From NCBI RefSeq assembly GCF_900142325.1, contig NZ_FRAM01000001.1:1-64000 (forward strand): a DNA stretch of 64,000 nucleotides. Direction: 5' to 3'. Positions 100 through 17,769 of this stretch are shown one piece after another. How positions within the stretch are numbered: the first letter of the stretch is position 1; every line of letters starts with the position of its first letter. A program made the position numbers and the translations under genes. The stretch is from Epilithonimonas mollis (GTDB lineage: Bacteria > Bacteroidota > Bacteroidia > Flavobacteriales > Weeksellaceae). The notes below the pieces were generated by a model, which did no database searches, was not told the DNA's origin, and saw only the letters and a program-made list of their open reading frames with translations.

Positions 100-271
100 A
101 TACAAATCGCATAGAAGCTGTAATTTTTGATATGGATGGCGTTCTGATTGATTCTGAAAAATCTCTGGAAACAGGCAGAATCAGAGATCTTTACTTCATT
201 AGGAGCAGAAGTAAGTGATGAACATTGTGCGTTCACAGCATCAATGACGACATCCCAAGTCACGAAATTCT
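90..271 (+). pseudogene. HAD-superfamily phosphatase, frameshifted and truncated
   Basis: The first frame reads MDLDTNRIEAVIFDMDGVLIDSE, the canonical HAD motif I (DxDGVLxDSE). At about 162-165 the frame breaks. The +1 frame then continues with WKQAESEIFTSLGAEVSDE and a FTxSMTTxQVTKFW stretch typical of the HAD cap region. A one-base insertion (TTC read as TCTC) explains the shift. From about 270 the sequence turns into an IS1595-type transposase in a third frame, so the rest of the phosphatase (motifs II-IV) is missing. Its overlap with tenA suggests a former role in thiamine or pyrimidine phosphate metabolism; that is inference. The remnant cannot encode an active enzyme. Confidence 0.75.
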
Positions 272-875
272 GGCACAAAAAACCGCTTGGTATATGTTAC
301 AAAGAATCAGATCATGTTTTGGAATTGAAAACTACAACGAGTTAGAAGGAGTGGTAGAAGCAGACGAAGCTTTTTATGGTGGATTAAATAAAAATCGCCA
401 CAAAAGAAAAAAGATTCCACAATCACAAGGTCGCGCATGTGTTGATAAAACTCCAGTACTTGGATTAGTTCAAAGAGAGGGTAAACTTACAGCAGTAGTA
501 ACCAAAGATACATCTGTAAAATCATTACAACCTATAATCAAAAAGTATATAAAACCTCAGACAGTATTAATTACCGATGATTGGAAAGGGTACAGAAATA
601 TGCCGGAATATAATCACTGTGTTATTAAAAACTACGCTAAACAAAAAATATATGATAACACAATTCATACTAATAACATAGAAGGCGCATGGAAAATCAT
701 GAAAAACATTCTTAGAGACATGTATAACTCAGTTTCAAGAAAATATCTACAGATATATGTAGATGAATTTGTTTTTCGTTATAATACCAGAGAAATGAAA
801 TGTGGAGTTAGATTTAATTACTTACTTTTGAATTCTAATATTAGAACAAAATATAAAGATCTAATCTATGTATAA
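270..875 (+). pseudogene. IS1595-family transposase, 5'-truncated
   Basis: The protein is recognisable from QKTAWYMLQRIR onward, followed by VEADEAFYGG (first catalytic Asp of the ISXO2-like DDE domain), LITDDWKGY (second Asp), HTNNIEGAW (third acidic position) and VSRKYLQIYVDEFVFRYN, the typical C-terminal block. All three catalytic regions survive. The N-terminal zinc-binding domain and DNA-binding part are lost, so transposition activity is unlikely. An open frame runs back to 225, but residues before about position 270 derive from the HAD gene read out of frame. The stop overlaps the ATG of the next ORF. Confidence 0.8.
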
Positions 876-4613: not shown

Positions 4614-5381
4614 TTATAAAAATCGATCTGCACCTTCAAGCCATTCCTTGAAACCAGTAACTTTGAGACGGCTCACAATCGCCTGTTCCTCTGGTTCAAT
4701 TTTAAGTTCAAGGATAACTTTTCGATTGAAGTAAGGTTGGATGGTGATGACAGCATTCCTGTTAATCAGCATTTGTCGGTTGATTCTGAAAAATGTTCGG
4801 GGATTACAAACACTCTCTATGTACTCCAGATTTTTGAAAACGGGATATCTCTTTTTGTCAAAGGTGTAAATGTAGACAACATCCTGCTCTATAATAAACA
4901 TTGCAATATTTTCTGCAAAAACTACCATCGTCTTATCTCTCTGCTGAGCAAGAAAACTTTTCTGATAAACTGGAAATTTGGAACTTTCTTGGGGAATTTC
5001 AAAGGTCATCTTTTTCTTGAAACGTACGGCCAATTGTTTGAATTTTTGGAGGGAAGTCAATATCTCCTTATCTTCAAAGGGTTTCATAATATAATCTATC
5101 CCATTGTTTTTTATGGCCTGAAGCGCATATTCGTCATAAGCCGTACAAAAGATGATGGGTATGCTGATGTCAATATGACGGAATATTTCAAAGCTGTGCC
5201 CGTCTGACAAGTGGATATCAAGAAATATCAGATCTATATTCTGGCTGTATTTAGCGAGATATGAGACGGTATCTACAATAGAATCCAGCGTTTTCAGCAC
5301 GATAAAATCCTTGTCTTTTTCGATAACATACTGCAGCATTTGGGCAGTGTGAATTTCGTCTTCTACCAAAAGAACATTCAT
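4614..5381 (-). CDS. LytTR-type response regulator
   Basis: 255 residues. The N-terminal receiver domain has acidic residues at 7-9 (VEDE), phospho-acceptor Asp55 in FLDIHLSDG, and the conserved Lys in IMKPFE. A linker leads to a C-terminal LytTR DNA-binding domain (IYTFDKKRYPVFKNLEYIES...FFRINRQMLINRNAV). It starts 2 bases after the stop of the LytS-type kinase gene, so the pair is an operon and almost certainly a cognate two-component system. Targets are unknown; the SDR genes downstream are candidates by position only. Confidence 0.93.
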   Translation of the reverse strand: MNVLLVEDEIHTAQMLQYVIEKDKDFIVLKTLDSIVDTVSYLAKYSQNIDLIFLDIHLSDGHSFEIFRHIDISIPIIFCTAYDEYALQAIKNNGIDYIMKPFEDKEILTSLQKFKQLAVRFKKKMTFEIPQESSKFPVYQKSFLAQQRDKTMVVFAENIAMFIIEQDVVYIYTFDKKRYPVFKNLEYIESVCNPRTFFRINRQMLINRNAVITIQPYFNRKVILELKIEPEEQAIVSRLKVTGFKEWLEGADRFL

Positions 5382-5383
5382 AA

Positions 5384-6349
5384 TTATATCAGTTTTAATT
5401 TTACTTCAAAGGATTCATCATTTGAATTCTTTATCATTCCGTCGGGAATCTTAAGCAAGGCATAACGTTGCATAAGATTCTCAAGACCGAATCCCGATAT
5501 CTCACCAACAGTAAGTTTGGGCAATCTATTATTTTTTACCAAAATGTAATCATTCTCGGTGTAAATTTTAATTTCCAGCGGATGCGAAGAAGAAGTTCTG
5601 TTATGTTTGAAACAATTCTCTGCCAGAATCTGAAGGCTGAGTACAGGGATCTGCTTCTGTAAAAGACTTTCTTCAATATCAATAGATACTTTGATCGCAC
5701 CTTCATTTCTCGTCTGTATTAGAAAAAGATAAGATTTCAGAACATCGATTTCTTCTTTTAGAGAGGTTGTTGATGTTTTGTTTAAGGTTAATGTCAACCG
5801 ATAGAAATTGGACAAACTCATCACAAACTGTTCAGAAGAAGGATGATTATTCCTGATCATCGTCCGCAATGTATTGAATGAATTGAACAGAAAATGAGGA
5901 TCAACTTTTGTTCTGAGTTCCTGAAGCTGAACTTTGTAATTCTCGATCAGGATTTGCTCATTTTGCAGCTGAAGCCTGGAAATACTTTCCTTAGCCTTGA
6001 GCGCAAACTGAATGATGAAGAACAATATTGCTGCAAAGAATAATTTGATAATGAAAACCCATTTGATAGTATTCGGTATTTTAAATATATACAAGGCAAA
6101 AAGGCCGTAAACTAAGACCGAGAAAGTCGTGACAGCACCTGTAATGATCAAGTTTCTATGTTTTTTCCTGATATTGGATAATATTTGCAGAAGATACCAG
6201 AGAATATACATTACAATAGATCCATAAAGCCATTTTTCCGCAAAATATTTAGGGACTTTACCACTCGCTTCCGAATTTGAAAAGAAATTGAGGCCCGGTA
6301 AAATAATTGCCAGAGCAAAAGGTAAAATAATATGTATCCTTTTTTTCAT
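5384..6349 (-). CDS. LytS-like sensor histidine kinase (His_kinase family)
   Basis: 321 residues. The N-terminal part has about four hydrophobic segments (IILPFALAIILPG, LYGSIVMYILWYLL, NLIITGAVTTFSVLVYGLFALY, WVFIIKLFFAAILFFIIQFAL), forming the membrane domain. A short coiled stretch leads to the phosphorylated His in KVDPHFLFNSFNTL, the hallmark of the His_kinase (PF06580) family, and to a HATPase domain with NCFKHNR. It is encoded directly before its LytTR partner with a 2-base gap. The ligand is unknown; there is no recognisable extracellular sensor domain. Confidence 0.92.
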   Translation of the reverse strand: MKKRIHIILPFALAIILPGLNFFSNSEASGKVPKYFAEKWLYGSIVMYILWYLLQILSNIRKKHRNLIITGAVTTFSVLVYGLFALYIFKIPNTIKWVFIIKLFFAAILFFIIQFALKAKESISRLQLQNEQILIENYKVQLQELRTKVDPHFLFNSFNTLRTMIRNNHPSSEQFVMSLSNFYRLTLTLNKTSTTSLKEEIDVLKSYLFLIQTRNEGAIKVSIDIEESLLQKQIPVLSLQILAENCFKHNRTSSSHPLEIKIYTENDYILVKNNRLPKLTVGEISGFGLENLMQRYALLKIPDGMIKNSNDESFEVKLKLI

Positions 6350-6459: not shown

Positions 6460-7353
6460 TTATTTCTGCAAATTAAAACTGTAGCCGATTTCAAACCTTA
6501 AACCTCTTGATTTGATCTCCTGAACAGGCTGTATTTTTTGGCGAAGATCAAAAGTGAAGATGCTCCAGTTATTGGCATTGGTATCGTCGTAAAGCCTGAT
6601 GCTGTTTATAAAATCATATCCGAGTCCCAGGGAAAACTTATGATTTCCTGCCAATTTATATTCCAATCCGCTCATGCCATACCAATTGTTGATTCTGATA
6701 AAACGACTGTTCTCTTCGTTTGCGGAGAGTCTGTAACTTGCCGCACTTGCAACTATCTCGTTGGTCCAAGACAGATTTTCGTTAATACTATAAGTGACTT
6801 TTGGTCGAATCGGCAGCAGTCCAGACAATTGGAGTTTTGGCGTGATCCTATAGTCCACCGATATAAATGGGTTCAGCTGATGCCCGAAGAACTGTCTGTT
6901 GTAGGACATTCCCCAACCTGTTCTGAGATTATCATTATGCTGAATGGTATATCTTGCGCCAAAAGAATAACGGAAATCTTCCCCACTCACATCTTTTAGA
7001 TCTGAATAAACACCCAACTGCCCAAATATGTAGATTTTATAGTTCTCATTTATTTTGGTCTGCCAGAATACAAAAAGATCTGTACTGTAAAGATCTTTGG
7101 AAATCGAGGGATCAAGGCCTGAAATACTTTTTGACTTAAACTGCAATCGTCCGCCAGCCATTCCTTCTTCGGAACGGTAAATTGGGAAGTTTACAAAGAC
7201 ATCTATATTCTTCATATGGCCTTTTACAGAATCGCTCTTGATATTCTGGTAGCCGTAAGTGGCTCCAAAAAAATCATATTTTCCTTCTTGTGCAGAGATT
7301 TTACTGCTAAAAGCCAAAACCAATGCTGCTGAAAGAATTGACCATTTTTTCAT
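6460..7353 (-). CDS. Outer-membrane beta-barrel protein (DUF6268-like)
   Basis: About 297 residues with a signal peptide (MKKWSILSAALVLAFSSKISAQ) followed by alternating amphipathic strands. It ends in LRFEIGYSFNLQK, typical of an outer-membrane barrel C-terminus. I chose the internal Met at 7353 because it gives a standard signal peptide and follows AAGAGA. An upstream ATG at 7374 in the same frame overlaps the end of the preceding remnant by 8 bases. The layout resembles the DUF6268 family of flavobacterial outer-membrane proteins; its function is not known. Confidence 0.75.
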   Translation of the reverse strand: MKKWSILSAALVLAFSSKISAQEGKYDFFGATYGYQNIKSDSVKGHMKNIDVFVNFPIYRSEEGMAGGRLQFKSKSISGLDPSISKDLYSTDLFVFWQTKINENYKIYIFGQLGVYSDLKDVSGEDFRYSFGARYTIQHNDNLRTGWGMSYNRQFFGHQLNPFISVDYRITPKLQLSGLLPIRPKVTYSINENLSWTNEIVASAASYRLSANEENSRFIRINNWYGMSGLEYKLAGNHKFSLGLGYDFINSIRLYDDTNANNWSIFTFDLRQKIQPVQEIKSRGLRFEIGYSFNLQK

Positions 7354-7366
7354 TTCTCTTAAATAA

Positions 7367-7908
7367 CTATTCATCTTTTTTCTTTTTTATATTAATGAAA
7401 ATCCCGACACCTGCATTGACTGAAATTACGGAAAATCCTTTGACAGAACCTATTGGCTCTTTAAATTCTGAATGTACATACTGTAGATTTCCGGTAAGGT
7501 AAAAGGTATTGTTCAGCCTCAAATTGGTAGCGCCGGTAAATGCATAATAATTAGCCGTCCGATTTCTTGTAATAATTGCCGCTTCACTACCGTCCCCGCC
7601 TCCAATTGTTCGGGTAACATTTCCACCGCCTGCAATAGCCGTTAGCCTGCCGCCGGAGAGTTTTATGTCTGTCCAGAATTTCCTCTGCTGATAAATGATG
7701 TAGCCTATTCCAATGCCGCTACGCAACATTGCACCACCAGACCCAGATCCACTCACCGTAATGCCATCACCTGTATTTTCTATATTATTAACACTCTTCT
7801 TTTTTCCGGCGTAAATAGCGGCGCCTTCTGCACTTCCGTACCAACGGTCAGAAAAATAGTAGCCGGCATTCATATTTCCCAAAGACCGGGAACGTAGTAG
7901 TTTTCTCG
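7367..7908 (-). pseudogene. Outer-membrane beta-barrel protein, 5'-truncated and frameshifted
   Basis: The readable part (GNMNAGYYFSDRWYGSAEG... to SVNAGVGIFINIKKKKDE) looks like the C-terminal half of a small outer-membrane barrel. It has Gly-rich loops and alternating strands, but no start codon context or signal peptide. Immediately upstream, another frame reads ENYYVPGLW, which fits directly before GNMNAGYYF, so a frameshift lies near 7880. Farther upstream the frame meets the stop of the next gene at 7930. The gene therefore lacks its beginning. Only an odd TTG could start the open stretch. Confidence 0.65.
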
Positions 7909-7929
7909 GCTTCTTTTATTTTTACTTCT

Positions 7930-8442
7930 TTACCATATTTCTTCATTATTAAGAAAAAGATTCTTACAACCTGAAGTTTCATTTTCTCCTTGAATAGTTA
8001 TGGTGGAAAATATTTTGCTCAGCTCGTATGATTCCTGACATAAAAATTCCCTGGAAAAACTCCTGCAGATAAGATGAACCCGATTGCGGTCAAAAAAATC
8101 CTCTTGGTACAATTCTTCAATCATATTTTTGAAAAATGCCAAAAAATCATTTGTCTCAGTAATTTGCTCAGTTTTGAGATAGTAGAAAATAGCATAATCA
8201 TTCATTCCTGTGATAGGAATATTTTTGAGCTTATCCGAATTATATATACTGTCCAAATCGCTTGAAGCTCCAATAATGATAAAAACCTTCATTCCCGGGA
8301 TTATCTGTGTTGAATTTTTCATTCTGTTATTCTGAACATAAATTTCGTATACCTTGTCCCGATATTTTATTTTACGTTTTATCTGTCCAAAGCATTTGGG
8401 AACGATGATCAATGTAAAAAAAATTAAAGCGTATTTACTCAT
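7930..8442 (-). CDS. Exported protein of unknown function, possible degenerate alpha/beta hydrolase
   Basis: 170 residues from the Met at 8442, which gives a signal peptide (MSKYALIFFTLIIVPKCFG). The mature part contains YRDKVYEIYVQNN, PGMKVFIIIGAS and DRNRVHLICRSFS. Their order resembles the strand-nucleophile layout of PHB-depolymerase-like esterases (DxxRVxLxGxSxGG), but the nucleophile elbow reads CRSFSRE, so catalysis by the usual mechanism is doubtful. It may itself be a decaying gene, since the next gene on the strand is a remnant. I would call it hypothetical. Confidence 0.5.
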   Translation of the reverse strand: MSKYALIFFTLIIVPKCFGQIKRKIKYRDKVYEIYVQNNRMKNSTQIIPGMKVFIIIGASSDLDSIYNSDKLKNIPITGMNDYAIFYYLKTEQITETNDFLAFFKNMIEELYQEDFFDRNRVHLICRSFSREFLCQESYELSKIFSTITIQGENETSGCKNLFLNNEEIW

Positions 8443-8592
8443 TATTGTTTTTGTAATATCCGGCAAATTTGAAAAAGGCGATGCTGTAAATCGGTTGTAA
8501 TTTTGTTGAACTGAACATTTTAAAAGCTGAATTGAACGGCAGTATTACTTCAGAATTTTTTCAGTAACCAAGTTTGACCCGCAAAACAAAAA

Positions 8593-8643: not shown

Positions 8644-9315
8644 TTAGATAATAATTTTACCATCCGCCATTTCAATAACGCGGTCGCAGTTGGCGGCAAA
8701 TTCATCATCATGCGTAACTGCAATGATGGTCTGTCCTTTTTCTTTTGCCAACTCACGGAATATTTCGAAAACTATCTTGGTATTCTTTGAATCGAGATTT
8801 CCTGTCGGCTCGTCTCCCATGATGATGGCAGGATCGTTGATCAATGCTCTCGCTATTGCAACCCGCTGTTGCTGACCACCGGAGATTTTCGAGGCTTTTT
8901 TATGTTCGTGTCCTTTTATACCCAAGAGATCGAGAAGATCCAAGGCTTTGTGTTTAATTTCTTCTTTTGAACGCTTTTTTAGTTTGAGCGCAGGAAGCAT
9001 CACATTGTCCAATACGGAAAATTCCGGTAACAGATAATGGAATTGAAAAACAAATCCAATATGCTCATTACGGAATGCGGACAGCTTATTTTGATTCAGC
9101 CCTGTCACAAGAGTATCGTTAATTATAATTTGCCCTTCATAATCTGTATCCATTGTGGAAAGGAGATATAAGAGCGTCGATTTCCCAGAACCCGATTTTC
9201 CTACCACAGCAACAAATTCCCCTTTATCTACCTCAAACGAAACATCCTTCAGAACCTGGAATTTTTCCGGTTCATAGAAATATTTATTAATATGGTTAAT
9301 CGATAATGCTTTCAT
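8644..9315 (-). CDS. ABC transporter ATP-binding protein, LolD/MacB type
   Basis: 223 residues with every ABC motif: Walker A GKSGSGKST (39-47), Q-loop in FVFQFHYLLPEFSVLDNV, signature SGGQQQRVAIARAL, Walker B IIMGDEPTGNLDS and the switch His in AVTHDDE. The length and the phrase DEPTGNLDS place it with LolD/MacB/FtsE ATPases that drive FtsX-type permeases. It is the last gene of an operon with the permease at 9609-10847, separated from it by two very small ORFs. It would supply energy for outward transport or extraction of a substrate (lipid, lipoprotein, peptide or drug). Confidence 0.95.
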   Translation of the reverse strand: MKALSINHINKYFYEPEKFQVLKDVSFEVDKGEFVAVVGKSGSGKSTLLYLLSTMDTDYEGQIIINDTLVTGLNQNKLSAFRNEHIGFVFQFHYLLPEFSVLDNVMLPALKLKKRSKEEIKHKALDLLDLLGIKGHEHKKASKISGGQQQRVAIARALINDPAIIMGDEPTGNLDSKNTKIVFEIFRELAKEKGQTIIAVTHDDEFAANCDRVIEMADGKIII

Positions 9316-9333: not shown

Positions 9334-9444
9334 TTATTCCGGATATTCCATCCATAATAAAAATGCGATAATTAAAATTTCTGTGATGGTAATCACAATA
9401 AAGAGTATCAGTAACTTGATGATTATAAGTAGATTTTTAATCAT
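9334..9444 (-). CDS. Tiny single-pass membrane peptide (36 aa) in the export operon
   Basis: Read from the DNA: the frame MIKNLLIIIKLLILFIVITI continues as TEILIIAFLLWMEYPE and stops. It is almost entirely hydrophobic with Lys at the N-terminal side, so one membrane helix is expected. It begins 9 bases after the stop of the 51-residue ORF and ends 18 bases before the ATPase start, on the same strand and without a terminator between. The gap between permease and ATPase is otherwise unexplained. No family is recognised; conservation of this frame in relatives would be the test. Confidence 0.5.
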   Translation of the reverse strand: MIKNLLIIIKLLILFIVITITEILIIAFLLWMEYPE

Positions 9445-9453
9445 TTTGATAAG

Positions 9454-9609
9454 TCAATAACAATAATAGCAACAGCAGTCCTGGCAATATGTATAGTATT
9501 CCCAATATTCCCTCGATAACTCTGCAAAAAATATCAGAATCAATACAATTACAAATAGTTTTATCGATGAACCATTGTCGTCATTGTTTTTATCGTCTTC
9601 TTTCCTCAT
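9454..9609 (-). CDS. Small membrane peptide with Cys-rich tail (51 aa) in the export operon
   Basis: Read from the DNA: an acidic, Asn/Asp-rich N-terminus (MRKEDDKNNDDNGSS), one hydrophobic helix (IKLFVIVLILIFFAEL), and a Tyr/Cys tail ending in YCQDCCCYYCY. The start overlaps the permease stop: an ATGATG spans the TGA, with AGAGG just before it, so translation is probably coupled (the alternative start, one codon earlier, is at 9612). Five Cys in the last ten residues suggest metal binding, disulfides or acylation, but this is inference. No known family comes to mind. Confidence 0.55.
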   Translation of the reverse strand: MRKEDDKNNDDNGSSIKLFVIVLILIFFAELSREYWEYYTYCQDCCCYYCY

Positions 9610-10847
9610 CATCCTCTTAATATGGCTACCGGATCTATTTTCGATGCATTTCTTGCGGGCAGATATCCTGCAATGGCTGTTATCATAAGGCCGAACAGAA
9701 GAGCCAAAACATAATCTGCAGGACTATAATCTATTGGAAGCGTTGTCATCGAGCCGATTTTAAACGGAATCTGATCAACAACTTTAGAAACAAAATATCC
9801 GAATCCCAGTCCCGTAAATCCACCGATAAGTCCGATAATAATGGATTGTGTCAGAAAGATCTCGACAATATCGGCTCCATTGAAACCCATTGCCTTCAAA
9901 ATTGCTATTTCTTTGATTTTTTCATTCACTGTCATATTCATAATATTATAAATACCAAATCCTGCGACGATCAAAATGGTACTGGAAACCGCTACCGCCA
10001 GAATATTTCGGAGCACGTTTGCAGAATCCAGCTGGGCATTGCCATCTTGCCACGCCTCCACTTTATATTTGGTCATTGCGGCTATTTTTCTAGAAATTTC
10101 TTTGGAGTTGTTATAATCATCAATATTGACAAGAATATCTGTCGCAAAGCTGCTGTTCTTTGAGAAAAGCTGTCTCGCCGAACGAATAGAAATAATGGCC
10201 CTGGTTTTATCCACACTGGCAGCACCTGTTTCCATAATTCCGATGATTTTGAAAATTCTTGTTATGCCGTCAGAGGTCAGAACCGTGATATTATCATCCA
10301 TCCCAACACCGAGATTCTGCGCCAACTTGAATCCTAAAATAATTCCGTCCGAACGTTTTTCAAGGTCAAAAAAATGACCTTGCCGCATATAATCTGATGT
10401 ATGAAACAGGTGATCTTCATTTTCAACATCCACTCCAGATAATGATGCATTGATCTTTGTAACACCATTTCTGATGAAAATATTCTGATTGAGCTGTTCC
10501 GTTATTGCTTCTATTTCTTCTAGTTTGGCAACAGATTCTTTGATAGGTTCTGTATTTTTGATGCCTTCAGTATAGCGGATATTTCTGGCATTATTCACGA
10601 TAACAATTCCATCGTCTTTTTTAGTTGGTTGAAGAATATTATTGACATCCGAAGGCAGATCGTTATAGATCCTGATATGTGACATCGAAGTGAATGAGAT
10701 CTGTGTCTGCGCGCTATTTACTCCGGACATAAAGCTGTTCATAAAAATGTACATCGATATTCCGAATGTGACACTCAAAACAGCCACAAAGAGTTGCTTG
10801 ACCTTGGATGAAAGATATATCCACGATATTTTTCTGTTGATATTCAT
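9609..10847 (-). CDS. FtsX-type ABC permease (LolC/LolE/MacB-like)
   Basis: 412 residues. The layout is a first membrane helix near the N-terminus (LFVAVLSVTFGISMYIFMNSF), a periplasmic MacB_PCD-like domain of about 220 residues, then three C-terminal helices in an FtsX domain, containing KIKEIAILKAMGF (the coupling segment facing the ATPase) and the final PARNASKIDPVAILRG. This topology is typical for LolCE/MacB permeases, which extract substrates from the outer face of the inner membrane instead of pumping through a channel. It lies 4 bases after the membrane-fusion gene and is coupled to the 51-residue ORF behind it. Confidence 0.93.
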   Translation of the reverse strand: MNINRKISWIYLSSKVKQLFVAVLSVTFGISMYIFMNSFMSGVNSAQTQISFTSMSHIRIYNDLPSDVNNILQPTKKDDGIVIVNNARNIRYTEGIKNTEPIKESVAKLEEIEAITEQLNQNIFIRNGVTKINASLSGVDVENEDHLFHTSDYMRQGHFFDLEKRSDGIILGFKLAQNLGVGMDDNITVLTSDGITRIFKIIGIMETGAASVDKTRAIISIRSARQLFSKNSSFATDILVNIDDYNNSKEISRKIAAMTKYKVEAWQDGNAQLDSANVLRNILAVAVSSTILIVAGFGIYNIMNMTVNEKIKEIAILKAMGFNGADIVEIFLTQSIIIGLIGGFTGLGFGYFVSKVVDQIPFKIGSMTTLPIDYSPADYVLALLFGLMITAIAGYLPARNASKIDPVAILRG

Positions 10848-10851
10848 CTTC

Positions 10852-11943
10852 TTAGTTTTTAGGTTTTAGCAGCACATCTTTTTCGGAGATACCACTTCGG
10901 ATCTCTGTCCATTCATTATCTTTTGAGCCGGTAACGATTTGTTTCTGAACTTTGTTTTCCAGTGTTACATAATTTCCTTTGGTAATATAAGACGTTGGTA
11001 TGACCAGCACATTTTTCCTTTTCGTCGTTTCTATATCGGCCTGAAGTTGTGTGCCCGAAAAAACGGCTTTCGGAAGTTTTTCAAATTTTGCTTCGACAAT
11101 ATAAGATTGTTCCGTTTCGTCAAAAGCCGGGAGAATTTTAACGATGGTCGCAGAAAAAGTATCATTGGGATAAGTATTGAGACGGATGGCCGCCTTTTGC
11201 CCGATCCTGATTTTCGCAATATCATCTTCCGAAACATACAACCTCAGCTTGAAATGGCCGTTGCCTATTTTTACAATGTTATCACCTTGCTTTACGAGTT
11301 CACCCTTTTTTTTGAAGACTGTGAGAACCTCTCCTTTTCCGGGAGAAGTGATGTTATAATCCTTCAAAATTTCGTTTTGCTGATCGACTTGTATTGCATT
11401 TCTTTTCTCAACAAGTTCAAGTGTACTTTTTGTGTCCTGATAATTCTTTTGAAGCGAAATCAAATTGTTCTGAGAAGCTCTGTACTGCAACTGAGCTTTT
11501 TCCAGATCCAATTGGGAAACAGAATTTTTTACCCTGAGTTCCTGGTAACGCTGGAAATTGACCTTGTCCTGCTCCGCCTGATGCTGAGCCTGATCAATCT
11601 GTGACTGAATCTGAAGCAGTTGCGCAGAACTACTTGAAGTATTTTTTCTTGATTGAGAATACACCGTTTCTGCATCCTTCAGCTGTTCTGTCTGTATTTT
11701 ATTTTCGATGGTGGCTACCAGGCTGTTTTTTGATATCTGATCACCTTCCGTCACCAAAATATCAAGTATGTTTCCGCTGATTTTTGCAGAGATAAGGTAT
11801 TCTTCATCTTTTTCTACATATCCGCTTGCAAAGACGGCATCTTCTAAATTTTTTCTTACCGGCTTTGTTTTTTCTGTTTTATTACAGGAAATCAGCATCC
11901 CGGCAAATAGAAAAAGAACCGTTCTTGTGATTGTATTTTTCAT
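10852..11943 (-). CDS. Membrane-fusion (HlyD/MacA-like) lipoprotein
   Basis: 363 residues. A lipobox (LFAGMLISC, acylated Cys near residue 20) makes it a lipoprotein. A lipoyl-like domain follows (ISAKISGNILDILVTEGDQISKNSLVATIEN), then a long Gln-rich coiled coil (about 90-200, SAQLLQIQSQIDQAQHQAEQ), the second lipoyl half (ITSPGKGEVLTVFKKKGELV) and beta-barrel domains. This is the periplasmic adaptor linking the permease to the TolC-like protein encoded just upstream. The operon order and 4-9 base gaps support a three-part efflux machine. The substrate is unknown. Confidence 0.93.
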   Translation of the reverse strand: MKNTITRTVLFLFAGMLISCNKTEKTKPVRKNLEDAVFASGYVEKDEEYLISAKISGNILDILVTEGDQISKNSLVATIENKIQTEQLKDAETVYSQSRKNTSSSSAQLLQIQSQIDQAQHQAEQDKVNFQRYQELRVKNSVSQLDLEKAQLQYRASQNNLISLQKNYQDTKSTLELVEKRNAIQVDQQNEILKDYNITSPGKGEVLTVFKKKGELVKQGDNIVKIGNGHFKLRLYVSEDDIAKIRIGQKAAIRLNTYPNDTFSATIVKILPAFDETEQSYIVEAKFEKLPKAVFSGTQLQADIETTKRKNVLVIPTSYITKGNYVTLENKVQKQIVTGSKDNEWTEIRSGISEKDVLLKPKN

Positions 11944-11952
11944 AATGTGTAA

Positions 11953-13269
11953 CTATGGTTTTTGAAAATCTATTTTCCGAATGTAGATCTTATATTTTGC
12001 CAGAGAAAAGTCAGCAAGGCTTTGCAGATAATTATACTGAGCAGAAAGAAGATCACTATATCGATCAAGGCGTTCGTCCAGACTGATGATCCCGCTTTCG
12101 TATTTGTTTTGGGTATGAATGTCATTTTTGTCCTGTAATGATAATATTTGGGTATTCCGTTCAAGATTGGTCTTTGTCTGGTCGTATTGCAGATTGAGAA
12201 TTTCATCTTCTTTGTCCTTTACAATTTTTATATTTTCCAGTTGAATCTGCTGTATTTTCAACTCTGCTTTAGATTCTTTGATTTTTTGATTGTTGGAGAA
12301 TCCATTGAAAACAGGGACATTAAGCTTTATTCCCAAAAACTGCTGAGGAAGTGTATTGGCATTTGAAAGATCATTAAGCCGATCTGTCGCCCAATTGTAA
12401 TTATATTGATAAACAAATCCCATCGATGGATAGCGCAAAGCCTCATTTTGCTTTACGAGTGACTTTGAAATATCGATCTGCTTCTCCTGCAAAAGGACTT
12501 CCGGATGAACAGCCTGAAAATCAGAAGCAAAAACAGAATCCTCAAAACTTCCAATATCTGATATCTGAATTTCTTCGCGGAGGTTAAGGGCGCTTTGCAT
12601 TTGTCTGTAAAGCTGTGCCATATTGTTTTCTGTGAGTTCAATTTTTCTTTGATTTTGAAGGTTCTGGATGGAAACACGGTTAAGGTCTGATTCGCTGATG
12701 ACACCTTTCTTATATTTTTCTAAAGCATTGTCCAGCATTACCTCGGTAGTTTTAAGATTTTCTTTATCGATCTCCATTGACCTCTGAGCAAGCGAAATTG
12801 AATAGTAAAGGGAAGCCAATTGATTATAGGTGTTGAAACGATTCACTTCTGTATCAATCTTCCCTGCCTCTGATCTCAATTTTGAGGTCTTAATCGCAAA
12901 GATCTTCTGGAAGTCCAGAACATTCCATTGGACCTGCAGGGATGTTGTATAGACATATGGCTTTCCGAATGTCATTTCCTGAAAACTGCCTTCCGGAGCA
13001 TTGGGATTAAATAGTTTTCCGGGAACCAATGTAGGCTGCAAAGTGATATTATCATTAAATCCTGCCGAAACGTTAATGGAAGGATAGAGAAATGATCTCA
13101 CCTGTTTTTCCCCAATACTATTGATCTCCTGTTTTTCTGCCGGAATACGTATGGATGTACTGTGTTTGTCAGCATAGTCAAGCACTTCCCGAAAAGAGCC
13201 AAAAACAATCTGACTCTTGACAGAAAAGCAACAAAGCATAACAGATATTACTAAAAAAGATTTTTTCAT
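11953..13269 (-). CDS. TolC family outer-membrane efflux protein
   Basis: 438 residues with a signal peptide (MKKSFLVISVMLCCFSVKSQ) and two halves of long helices and strands characteristic of the OEP family, for example VRSFLYPSINVSAGFNDNI and ALRYPSMGFVYQYNYNW, with YESGIISLDERLDRYSDLLSAQYNYLQS near the end. It would form the outer-membrane exit duct for the adaptor and permease encoded behind it. The upstream DUF2147 gene ends 4 bases before its start, so all belong to one transcript. Confidence 0.93.
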   Translation of the reverse strand: MKKSFLVISVMLCCFSVKSQIVFGSFREVLDYADKHSTSIRIPAEKQEINSIGEKQVRSFLYPSINVSAGFNDNITLQPTLVPGKLFNPNAPEGSFQEMTFGKPYVYTTSLQVQWNVLDFQKIFAIKTSKLRSEAGKIDTEVNRFNTYNQLASLYYSISLAQRSMEIDKENLKTTEVMLDNALEKYKKGVISESDLNRVSIQNLQNQRKIELTENNMAQLYRQMQSALNLREEIQISDIGSFEDSVFASDFQAVHPEVLLQEKQIDISKSLVKQNEALRYPSMGFVYQYNYNWATDRLNDLSNANTLPQQFLGIKLNVPVFNGFSNNQKIKESKAELKIQQIQLENIKIVKDKEDEILNLQYDQTKTNLERNTQILSLQDKNDIHTQNKYESGIISLDERLDRYSDLLSAQYNYLQSLADFSLAKYKIYIRKIDFQKP

Positions 13270-13273
13270 TGAT

Positions 13274-13654
13274 TTACAATCTGGTCCAAACCTGCGTTTT
13301 TGACATTATTCCGTAAGATGCTTTAACAGTTAACTGATCTTTAGTAATCTTCACGGTACAGGAAGCCGTTTTCCCTTTCTTTATGATATGAACCGTTCCA
13401 TTATTGTAATTGCCCTCGTGTTGGAACTTGAGTCCGGTGATCTGTTTTTTACCAATGAGACTTTTATCTTCTGATTTCAGGATAACGGCATCGTAAGAAG
13501 GTCCGTTTTTAACAAATTCTACCACTTTTGTTTTATCTTCATTGGCCCATTTTCCAAGAAGTTTGTCCGGAGAATTCTGTGCTTGCATATTGATTCCCAT
13601 TAATAGGAATACCAATGGAAAAATAATTTTTGAGGTTTTAAAAAGGTTTTTCAT
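13274..13654 (-). CDS. DUF2147 domain-containing exported protein
   Basis: 126 residues with a signal peptide (up to NMQAQ) and a compact DUF2147 domain: LLGKWANEDKTKVVEFVKNG, ITGLKFQHEGNYNNGTVHIIKKGKT and a C-terminal GIMSKTQVWTRL. DUF2147 proteins are small periplasmic beta-sandwich proteins of unknown function that often lie beside membrane genes. Here it is the first gene of the export operon, which suggests a helper role or simply shared expression. Confidence 0.85.
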   Translation of the reverse strand: MKNLFKTSKIIFPLVFLLMGINMQAQNSPDKLLGKWANEDKTKVVEFVKNGPSYDAVILKSEDKSLIGKKQITGLKFQHEGNYNNGTVHIIKKGKTASCTVKITKDQLTVKASYGIMSKTQVWTRL

Positions 13655-16183: not shown

Positions 16184-17634
16184 ATGCTGATAGCAGATTT
16201 ATATATTAGAGTTTCTACAGATGAACAAGCTAATAAAGGTTATTCTCAGAGAGATCAGCATGAAAGATTAGAACGATATTGCAATCAAAACCAGATTACG
16301 ATCGGTCAGGTAATATTTGAGGACCATTCTGCAAAAAATTTTAATAGGCCGGAGTGGACAAAATATATCAATCACATAAAAAAAAGAAGTCTTAAATCAA
16401 ATTTAGTTCTGTTTACAAAGTGGGATCGCTTTAGCAGAAATGCCGGTGATGCTTATCAGATGATTAAATTGCTGTTAGGCAACAACATTTCACCACAATC
16501 AATCGAGCAACCTCTAGACATGTCTATTCCGGAAAATAAGATGATGCTGGCAATCTATTTGGCAGCTCCGGAAGTTGAAAATGATCGAAGATCTCTAAAT
16601 ACTTTTTATGGGATGAGAAGAGCTCAGAAAGAAGGAAGGCTAATGGGAACAGCTTCGTACGGCTACGTCAATAAGTGTACAGAAGATGGCAGAAAATATG
16701 TTGGTCTTAAAGAGCCGGAAGCTTCGAATATGCTCTGGGCATTTAATGAGATTGCTAAAGGTAAATACTCCATCAATCAAATAAGGTTGAAGATGAATAC
16801 TATGGTGCAAACATTAGCAGTACATCATTCTACAGGGCAATAAAAAATCCTATATACTGTGGTAAAATATTTATTAAAGCTTACAAAGATGAAGAGGCCT
16901 GCCTTGTTGAAGCTACCCATGAAAGTTTGATTTCGCAATCTCTTTTTAATAAGGTACAGAAAGTTTTAAGTGGAAAAACTTGGGCAGAAAGGCCACAAGG
17001 AAAAATGATTGCCCATAACCATTTTCCTTTAAGAGGTTTTTTAAAATGTCCCAAATGCGGAGGTCACATTACAGGTAGCGGATCGAAAGGTAAAAAGAAC
17101 GTCTACTATTATTATCACTGCAAATCCAGATGTGGATACAGATATAGCTCTGACATAGTTAATGATGCATTCACAAAAGAGTTAAAAAAATATGAGTGTC
17201 ATACTGGATTTAGTCACCTTATTAAGAAAATACTTTTGATCAATTTCAAAAATATTCATCAAGGTCTAGACGTGAAGAGAAAGGAAATTTCTTCAAAAAT
17301 TATCAACTTGAATAATCGTCTAAATAGTGCCAGAGAAAAATACTTAGAGGACAAATTGGATTTTGAAGATTATCAGTTGATTAAAAACGAAAGTAAAAAG
17401 AAAATTGATGTATTGGAAATGGATTTGCAGAATCAAAAGCTAACTGGTAAAAATAGCGATATCACAACAAAACTTGATCAAGTGCTAAAAGTATTACCAA
17501 ATCTCTCTCAAATCTATACTACAGGGGATTCAAACGGTAATGTGTTCGATTTTTGCCGAAAAACTAGAATTTCACGAAACGACTTTTCGAACACCCCAGA
17601 TCAATTCCACCCTTTCCTCTATCTTATTAATTAA
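16184..17634 (+). pseudogene. Large serine recombinase, two frameshifts
   Basis: The first frame gives the complete N-terminal resolvase domain: YIRVSTDEQ with catalytic Ser at about 11, DQHERLERYC, KWDRFSRN and the start of the recombinase domain. At about 16800-16812 it runs into a stop; the +1 frame continues with ANISSTSFYRAIKNPIYCGKI and a zinc ribbon (CPKCGGHI...YYHCKSRCGYR), then a coiled coil. Near 17530 a second shift is needed: the annotated frame reads VFDFCRKTRIS, whereas another reads SIFAEKLEFHETTFRTPQ, the usual family ending. Neither site is a long homopolymer. The enzyme would be about 480 residues; as read it is inactive, so the associated element is stranded. Confidence 0.85.
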
Positions 17635-17687: not shown

Positions 17688-17695
17688 CCGTCAAG

Positions 17696-17769
17696 TGACC
17701 TCGAAGGGATTCGAACCCCTAACCCTCGGAGCCGAAATCCGATATTCTATCCAGTTGAACTACGAGGCC
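17696..17769 (-). tRNA. tRNA-Arg (anticodon UCG)
   Basis: Folded by eye on the minus strand: acceptor GGCCTCG pairs with CGAGGTC (one G-U) with discriminator A. The anticodon stem TCGGA/TCCGA encloses loop TTTCGGC with anticodon TCG at the centre, and the T arm is GGGGTTCGAATCCC. It would read CGA and related Arg codons. The CCA is not encoded. Its 3' end faces the mobile-element scar, the usual side for integration, though large serine recombinases generally do not target tRNAs. Confidence 0.95.

Follow-up and report, generated by a model that had tools for sequence, protein, structure and literature searches.

The permease and ATPase of MacB are fused, and KdpF provides an example of a small transmembrane (TM) protein tied to a transporter. 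AcrZ is another such protein (PMC7267776) and modulates AcrAB-TolC (PMC5985334). According to the cited papers, MacB and other type VII ABC systems take up their substrates from the periplasm, typically with a periplasmic partner (PMC5985334, PMC8277102, PMC12646458), and the peptide substrates of MacB are commonly small and disulfide-bonded (PMC5985334). Membrane partners are also on record in this class. BceAB has the membrane partner BceS (PMC12646458), and YknW, which possesses four TM helices, is critical for the assembly and function of a MacB-like exporter (PMC8277102), an effect of YknW on YknXYZ being also mentioned in PMC5985334. The latter source leaves room for additional proteins that affect MacB, presents MacB substrate recognition as little known and names small membrane proteins as uncharacterised.

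The window analysed here, a stretch of 64,000 nucleotides from Epilithonimonas mollis, contains a related exporter operon in which two very short open reading frames (ORFs), smORF1 and smORF2, lie between the permease and ATPase genes. A peptide of the smORF1 type, with a TM helix and a C-terminal tail rich in Tyr and Cys, is found at the same place in six species, hereafter called the carriers: the window, C. taeanense (two loci), three further genomes of the same family (G003, G007 and G180) and Mesonia oceanica. Literature searches in open-licence PubMed Central papers returned no title or abstract opening that describes such a peptide.

The exporter operon and its cassette

All the genes of the operon lie on the minus strand. 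They encode a small DUF2147 protein (13274..13654; PF09917, E 1.8e-12), which is the first gene of the cassette and keeps this place in the carriers, a TolC-family outer membrane exit duct (11953..13269; PF02321, E 3.5e-35), a periplasmic adaptor of the HlyD/RND type (10852..11943; PF13437, with TIGR01730 above its cut-off), a 412-aa permease of the FtsX/MacB type with no Cys at all (9609..10847; PF02687, E 8.8e-23; PF12704, E 8.1e-16), the two small ORFs, and a LolD-like ABC ATPase (8644..9315; PF00005, E 6.4e-33). By its domains, namely the FtsX C-terminal domain and the MacB periplasmic core of the permease, the exporter belongs to the tripartite type VII (MacB-like) systems, and the adaptor and TolC genes are adjacent, on one strand and in the same operon as the permease. 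The NCBIfam equivalog models of LolCDE score below their cut-offs, with 152.4 bits for lolCE (cut-off 362.45) and 256.2 bits for LolD (TIGR02211, cut-off 307.75). The adaptor N-terminus resembles a lipoprotein signal (..LISC-NK, lipobox identified by eye), as read from five carrier rows with G007 left out.

The cassette continues with a DUF6268 outer-membrane barrel-like protein (6460..7374; PF19783, E 4e-13), a histidine kinase (5384..6349; PF06580, E 8.8e-19) and, as its final gene, a LytTR response regulator (4614..5381; PF04397 and PF00072), the latter two being present in all six carriers. This order, from the DUF2147 gene to the regulator and with the peptide between permease and ATPase, is the same in the six carriers; the Pfam assignments come from tests on the window and, in the case of the barrel, on Mesonia as well. 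Two ORFs at 7930..8466 and 7367..7882 (minus strand) correspond to the two ends, N- and C-terminal, of what is a single ORF of 433-436 aa in G003 and G007; in the window this gene (7367-8466, minus strand) looks broken, its middle being apparently missing. A serine recombinase in two ORFs (16184-17634, plus strand; PF00239 and PF13408) lies near the cassette and adjoins a tRNA-Arg gene (17695-17769, minus strand), and a search for a repeat of the tRNA end, which would indicate the border of an island, found none in the window. On the opposite side of the cassette, at the contig start, an IS1595-type transposase domain (PF12762) is located at 225-875 (plus strand).

Coding signal, composition and topology of the small proteins

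smORF1 (9454..9612), a single-pass membrane peptide, and smORF2 (9334..9444), a hydrophobic peptide, are both on the minus strand. The initial annotation had described two same-strand ORFs with one membrane helix each, and its description holds: smORF1 has 52 codons if counted from its first ATG, or 51 if the second one (9609) is used, it overlaps the stop of the permease gene at its start (..GGATGATGAGG..), its product ends in YCQDCCCYYCY, smORF2 has 36 codons, the gaps are of 9 nt between the two ORFs and 18 nt between smORF2 and the ATPase gene, and one helix is predicted for each product. An overlap of this kind also occurs in C. taeanense, G003, G007 and G180, and in Mesonia the peptide gene starts 11 nt after the permease stop. 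smORF2 has 63 codons in C. taeanense, with a longer N-terminus. For smORF1 (P0001), three Pfam matches were obtained, all below cut-off (E 0.044-0.064), and none in NCBIfam; smORF2 (P0002) has no match in either collection.

Both small ORFs show signs of purifying selection. The excess of synonymous change that the initial annotation proposed to look for is indeed observed between the window and C. taeanense, with dN/dS values of 0.19 for smORF1 (p 1e-4) and 0.16 for smORF2 (p 2e-4; Nei-Gojobori counts, Fisher test), ratios which, like those that follow, are rough indications given the small counts, the gapped alignments and the high dS (1.0-1.4 for this pair). In the second carrier group, smORF1 gives 0.12 for G007-G180 (p 5.5e-6), 0.20 for G003-G180 (p 2e-4) and a non-significant 0.42 for G007-G003 (p 0.07), so that p is below 0.001 in four of the five comparisons. 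The permease yields about 0.06 between the window and C. taeanense, the peptides being thus less constrained than their neighbour. Chance occurrence was assessed with 3000 dinucleotide-preserving shuffles of each of four permease-ATPase gaps. None of the 3000 shuffled window gaps contained an ORF that combined a hydrophobic stretch with 10 or more Tyr/Cys among its final 25 residues, and the same result (0/3000 each) was obtained for the gaps of C. taeanense, G007 and Mesonia. Two ORFs of at least 36 codons with a hydrophobic stretch appeared in one of the 3000 shuffled window gaps, and at least one such ORF in 79, so that smORF2 by itself is just mildly unusual. Both small ORFs probably encode real membrane proteins.

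The peptides of the carriers have 42-72 aa and one TM helix by hydropathy. Their tails contain 7 Tyr in the window, 11 in C. taeanense, 18 in G007, 19 in G003, 17 in G180 and 11 in Mesonia, the corresponding Cys numbers being 5, 3, 6, 7, 6 and 1. The constant feature of the tail is thus Tyr, and Cys is variable. The five Cys stressed in the initial annotation are peculiar to the window, and there is no even, conserved set of Cys of the kind expected of a disulfide-bonded peptide substrate of MacB. A redox sensor, also suggested at the outset, was set aside as the main reading, since it rests on residues that are not conserved in number (a single Cys in Mesonia). A conserved permease Cys that could pair with the tail was searched for and not found: the window permease has none, and in the other carriers the permease contains at most one, whose position varies, which makes a conserved disulfide between peptide and permease unlikely.

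Lys/Arg residues are counted, on the N and C sides of the helix respectively, as 3/1 in the window, 2/1 in C. taeanense, 3/0 in G007, 2/0 in G003, 3/0 in G180 and 4/0 in Mesonia. By the positive-inside rule, this bias predicts an N-in/C-out orientation for the six Tyr/Cys-tailed peptides, with the tail in the periplasm; the N side of the window smORF1 is also acid-rich, with 5 acidic residues. Neither a double-glycine leader nor a plain cleavage site is visible by eye in smORF1. A single-sequence fold prediction gave one helix over residues 13-51 (mean pLDDT 77.9), which adds little.

Distribution, descent and exchange

The permease was searched in 23 genomes of the genus, in 320 of the family and in samples of 395 genomes each from the order and the class, and an additional collection scan returned 66 loci. 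In the family, it is found at E 1e-60 in 15 of the 320 genomes and is at least 60% identical in 7 of those 15; five of these seven carry the Tyr/Cys peptide. Mesonia oceanica alone has a close permease among 16 genomes of its genus, and a plasmid search returned one record, from Hymenobacter (54.8%). The permease-ATPase gap was measured in 105 loci (L001-L004 and L031-L131, four pairs being the same locus twice), of which 104 were counted, the remaining one having no ATPase on its contig. It is at most 40 nt long in 88 of the 104, which leaves no room for the peptide, and longer than 40 nt in 16; L163 and L164 have gaps of 5 and 12 nt. A TM peptide with a Tyr/Cys-rich tail occupies seven of the 16 wide gaps, representing the six carrier species. 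Two others, both from Chryseobacterium sp. SC28, contain a TM ORF without such a tail and with a reversed charge bias (K/R 1 vs 4). There is no TM ORF in six (L037, L063, L064, L067, L085 and L102), and the wide gap of L093 is an artefact, as the permease match ends early and its remainder lies in another frame. The 664-nt gap of L067, from a Crocinitomicaceae MAG, contains an ORF of about 220 aa, which we take to resemble a LOG-family protein.

The peptide is thus optional rather than a core subunit, as indicated by the 88 loci without room for it and by four full cassettes (L033, L038, L041 and L048) that possess the kinase, the regulator, the DUF2147 protein and the DUF6268 barrel without the peptide. 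Apibacter (L137) has the four exporter genes alone, also without it. Relatives with the same operon and no reading frame in the gap had been named in the initial annotation as evidence that would count against it; most relatives are of this kind, the carriers are not. Of the features that it proposed to look for, a frame at the same position is seen for the smORF1 architecture, in six species. The idea of smORF1 and smORF2 as a unit was not retained, since, of all the slots read, those of the window and C. taeanense alone have a smORF2-like frame.

ORFs with 10 or more Tyr/Cys among their final 25 residues were sought in the window and L001-L162, i.e., 1.2 Mb (1.1 Mb distinct by 31-mer count) of sequence surrounding permease genes and weak profile matches. 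The scan gave 17 matches, which are copies of six distinct peptides, all 17 between permease and ATPase; outside this slot, the scanned loci contained no such ORF. In the 320 family genomes, a profile built from the six peptides returned 25 matches, 20 of them at E 0.008 or worse and five strong ones (E 2.1e-18 or better), which are the profile's own rows, all in the slot. When applied to 397 genomes from a different family within the order, it found nothing at E 0.001, a weak test since the profile misses its own Mesonia row in the Mesonia genome (0/5 genomes at E 0.1); divergent members could be missed in the home family too.

In a tree of permease and ATPase (71 rows), the carriers are found in three places: the window with C. 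taeanense, G003 with G007 and G180, and Mesonia, whose row is among long branches. A single branch with all carriers on one side was considered and disagrees with this tree, as well-supported branches force at least three changes. Possible explanations for the carrier pattern are a single gain followed by several losses, recombination-mediated transfer, or convergence. Peptide similarity between the lineages is no better than that of shuffles with regional composition (window-G007 296/1000, window-Mesonia 310/1000, G007-Mesonia 287/1000). What recurs, as judged from these comparisons, is therefore an architecture, a TM helix with a Tyr/Cys tail in a fixed slot, rather than a proven homologous family. 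The tail-less SC28 ORF is more similar than chance to the window helix (2/1000) and to the Mesonia one (16/1000), but not to that of G007 (380/1000).

Despite belonging to different genera, G007 and G180 have cassettes with sharp ends and, in seven genes, differences of 0.9-3.3%. Such near-identity points to transfer, and the cassette appears to have moved between genera. Its flanks are common to G003 and G007 and differ in the other carriers. The divergence between G007 and G180 reaches 11.3% in smORF1 and 7.9% in the regulator, with a patch of about 11-12% in TolC, compared to 1.0% in the permease and 1.5% in the ATPase. Judged from these divergences, the pair is the product of a patchwork exchange, with the peptide gene as the most divergent one of the cassette. 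This gene is again the most divergent between G007 and G003 (11.3%), with TolC close behind (9.9%). An initial view of the peptide as uniquely hypervariable was toned down, given the divergent patches of TolC and regulator between G007 and G180.

Additional genes, different from case to case, seem to enter the cassette at several of its joints. Between adaptor and permease, an additional gene is present in G180 (L134 8771-9490), where it matches the lipid A deacylase PagL, and in G003 (L132 8608-9369), whose gene is a relative at 93%; G007 lacks the space for such a gene. A PagL-like gene would fit a theme of envelope remodelling. Between the ATPase and the DUF6268 barrel, two further genes of G003 (L132 11553-12044, with a DUF6515 match, and 12068-13378, without Pfam match) are also found in G007 and are absent in G180. 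In SC28 (L136 5969-7144), two more genes lie between the barrel and the kinase.

Possible roles and comparison with known exporters

The reading that we tentatively prefer, with somewhat less than even confidence, is that smORF1, joined by smORF2 in the window and C. taeanense, would be a real single-pass microprotein and an optional accessory subunit of a type VII (MacB/LolCDE-like) tripartite ABC exporter. This reading draws on the position of the gene, the overlap with the permease stop, the signs of purifying selection, the recurrence in the same slot and the N-in/C-out charges, and AcrZ and YknW provide precedents for it. The peptide would be produced together with the permease and its helix would pack against the FtsX helices, the tail of about 19-37 Tyr-rich residues projecting into the periplasm, at the mouth formed by the periplasmic domain of the permease and the adaptor. 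From there it could alter the choice of hydrophobic or peptide substrates, or the coupling of the pump, which would be part of a mobile cassette equipped with a histidine kinase and a LytTR regulator, perhaps for envelope stress.

Several observations argue against such a subunit. Most relatives do without it, the similarity between the three lineages stays at shuffle level and does not support a single conserved binding helix, the constraint is weaker than on the permease, and the slot ORF of SC28 has no tail and a reversed charge bias. Moreover, no other gene of the cassette diverges as much between G007 and G180 as that of the peptide, an unusual behaviour if it encodes a fixed subunit. This divergence, far above that of permease and ATPase, is what swapped cargo would display, as is a tail that varies in length and sequence. 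smORF1 might then be the exporter's own peptide cargo, with the helix as a signal anchor and the tail freed or drawn out on the periplasmic side and then exported via the adaptor and TolC under kinase/LytTR control. MacB does take periplasmic, commonly small and disulfide-bonded peptides (PMC5985334), and the tails contain 1-7 Cys. We nevertheless consider this rather unlikely, since most related exporters lack the peptide, the tails of four of the six carriers have an odd Cys number, that of Mesonia a single Cys, and no leader or cleavage site is apparent; in addition, a gene wedged between transporter subunits and overlapping the permease stop would suggest similar amounts of peptide and permease. 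A stabilising subunit and the exported peptide itself had both been proposed in the initial annotation, and both are compatible with the data, so that its interpretation is, as a whole, partly supported.

By analogy with BceAB-BceS, smORF1 could link the pump to the cassette kinase and report the state of the pump or envelope. The kinase and regulator of all six carrier cassettes and the membrane partner BceS of a type VII system (PMC12646458) are consistent with this link, which appears unlikely all the same, as the same set of kinase, regulator, DUF2147 protein and barrel is found without the peptide in L033, L038, L041 and L048. Two further accounts deny the products any function. Amino-acid-rich leader peptides are known in attenuation, and both small ORFs lie just upstream of the ATPase start, where they might be translated merely to set the amount of ATPase, as a translational relay or a Tyr/Cys attenuator. 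We regard this as very improbable: each carrier group preserves the helix and the N-terminus, there is an excess of synonymous change, and the ATPase simply begins at most 40 nt from the permease stop in 88 of 104 loci. Hardly credible is the emergence of chance ORFs in a drifting spacer. The shorter smORF2 of the window, its presence in two species only among the slots read and the 79 of 3000 shuffles with one hydrophobic ORF of at least 36 codons would be in line with it, but no Tyr/Cys-tailed TM ORF arose in 3000 shuffles of any of the four gaps, dN/dS is well below 1 (p < 0.001 in four of five comparisons), and the slot is recurrent.

A more general proposal extends the preferred subunit reading as well as the cargo one. 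The peptides may represent an undescribed class of optional microproteins, each consisting of an anchor and a Tyr/Cys-rich periplasmic tail, acquired or kept at a fixed slot in at least three lineages, with alleles exchanged independently of the transporter, and defining specificity as a built-in selector or as dedicated cargo. We consider this conceivable, though doubtful. The presence of the peptide in some related cassettes and its absence in others provide a natural comparison with and without it. Such an optional microprotein also suggests that genes of less than about 70 codons inside well-known operons may hold functions that annotation could miss.

As in MacAB-TolC and the other type VII (mechanotransmission) exporters, an FtsX/MacB_PCD permease, an ATPase, an HlyD-type adaptor and TolC are encoded in one operon. 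In contrast with MacAB-TolC, permease and ATPase are here separate genes with a small TM peptide between them, the adaptor is lipoprotein-like, and the cassette includes a LytTR two-component system. LolCDE provides the best NCBIfam scores (lolCE, 152.4 bits; LolD, 256.2 bits), but both are below cut-off, and an adaptor and TolC are present, so that the exporter is not LolCDE proper. A small membrane protein beside a transporter is a kind already known, and smORF1, a short protein with one TM helix encoded next to a transporter gene, shares these traits with AcrZ and KdpF. The transporter classes differ, and to our knowledge neither AcrZ nor KdpF has a Tyr/Cys-rich periplasmic tail, whose recurrence is the unusual feature here. 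YknWXYZ of Bacillus likewise combines a MacB-like ABC exporter with an added membrane protein (PMC8277102); compared to YknW, smORF1 and smORF2 have one helix each and no Pfam or NCBIfam match above cut-off. Lastly, like the disulfide-bonded peptide substrates of MacB of the STII type (PMC5985334), smORF1 is small and has a Cys-bearing, predicted periplasmic tail, but its anchor is apparently uncleaved, its Cys number is variable and often odd, and Tyr dominates its tail.
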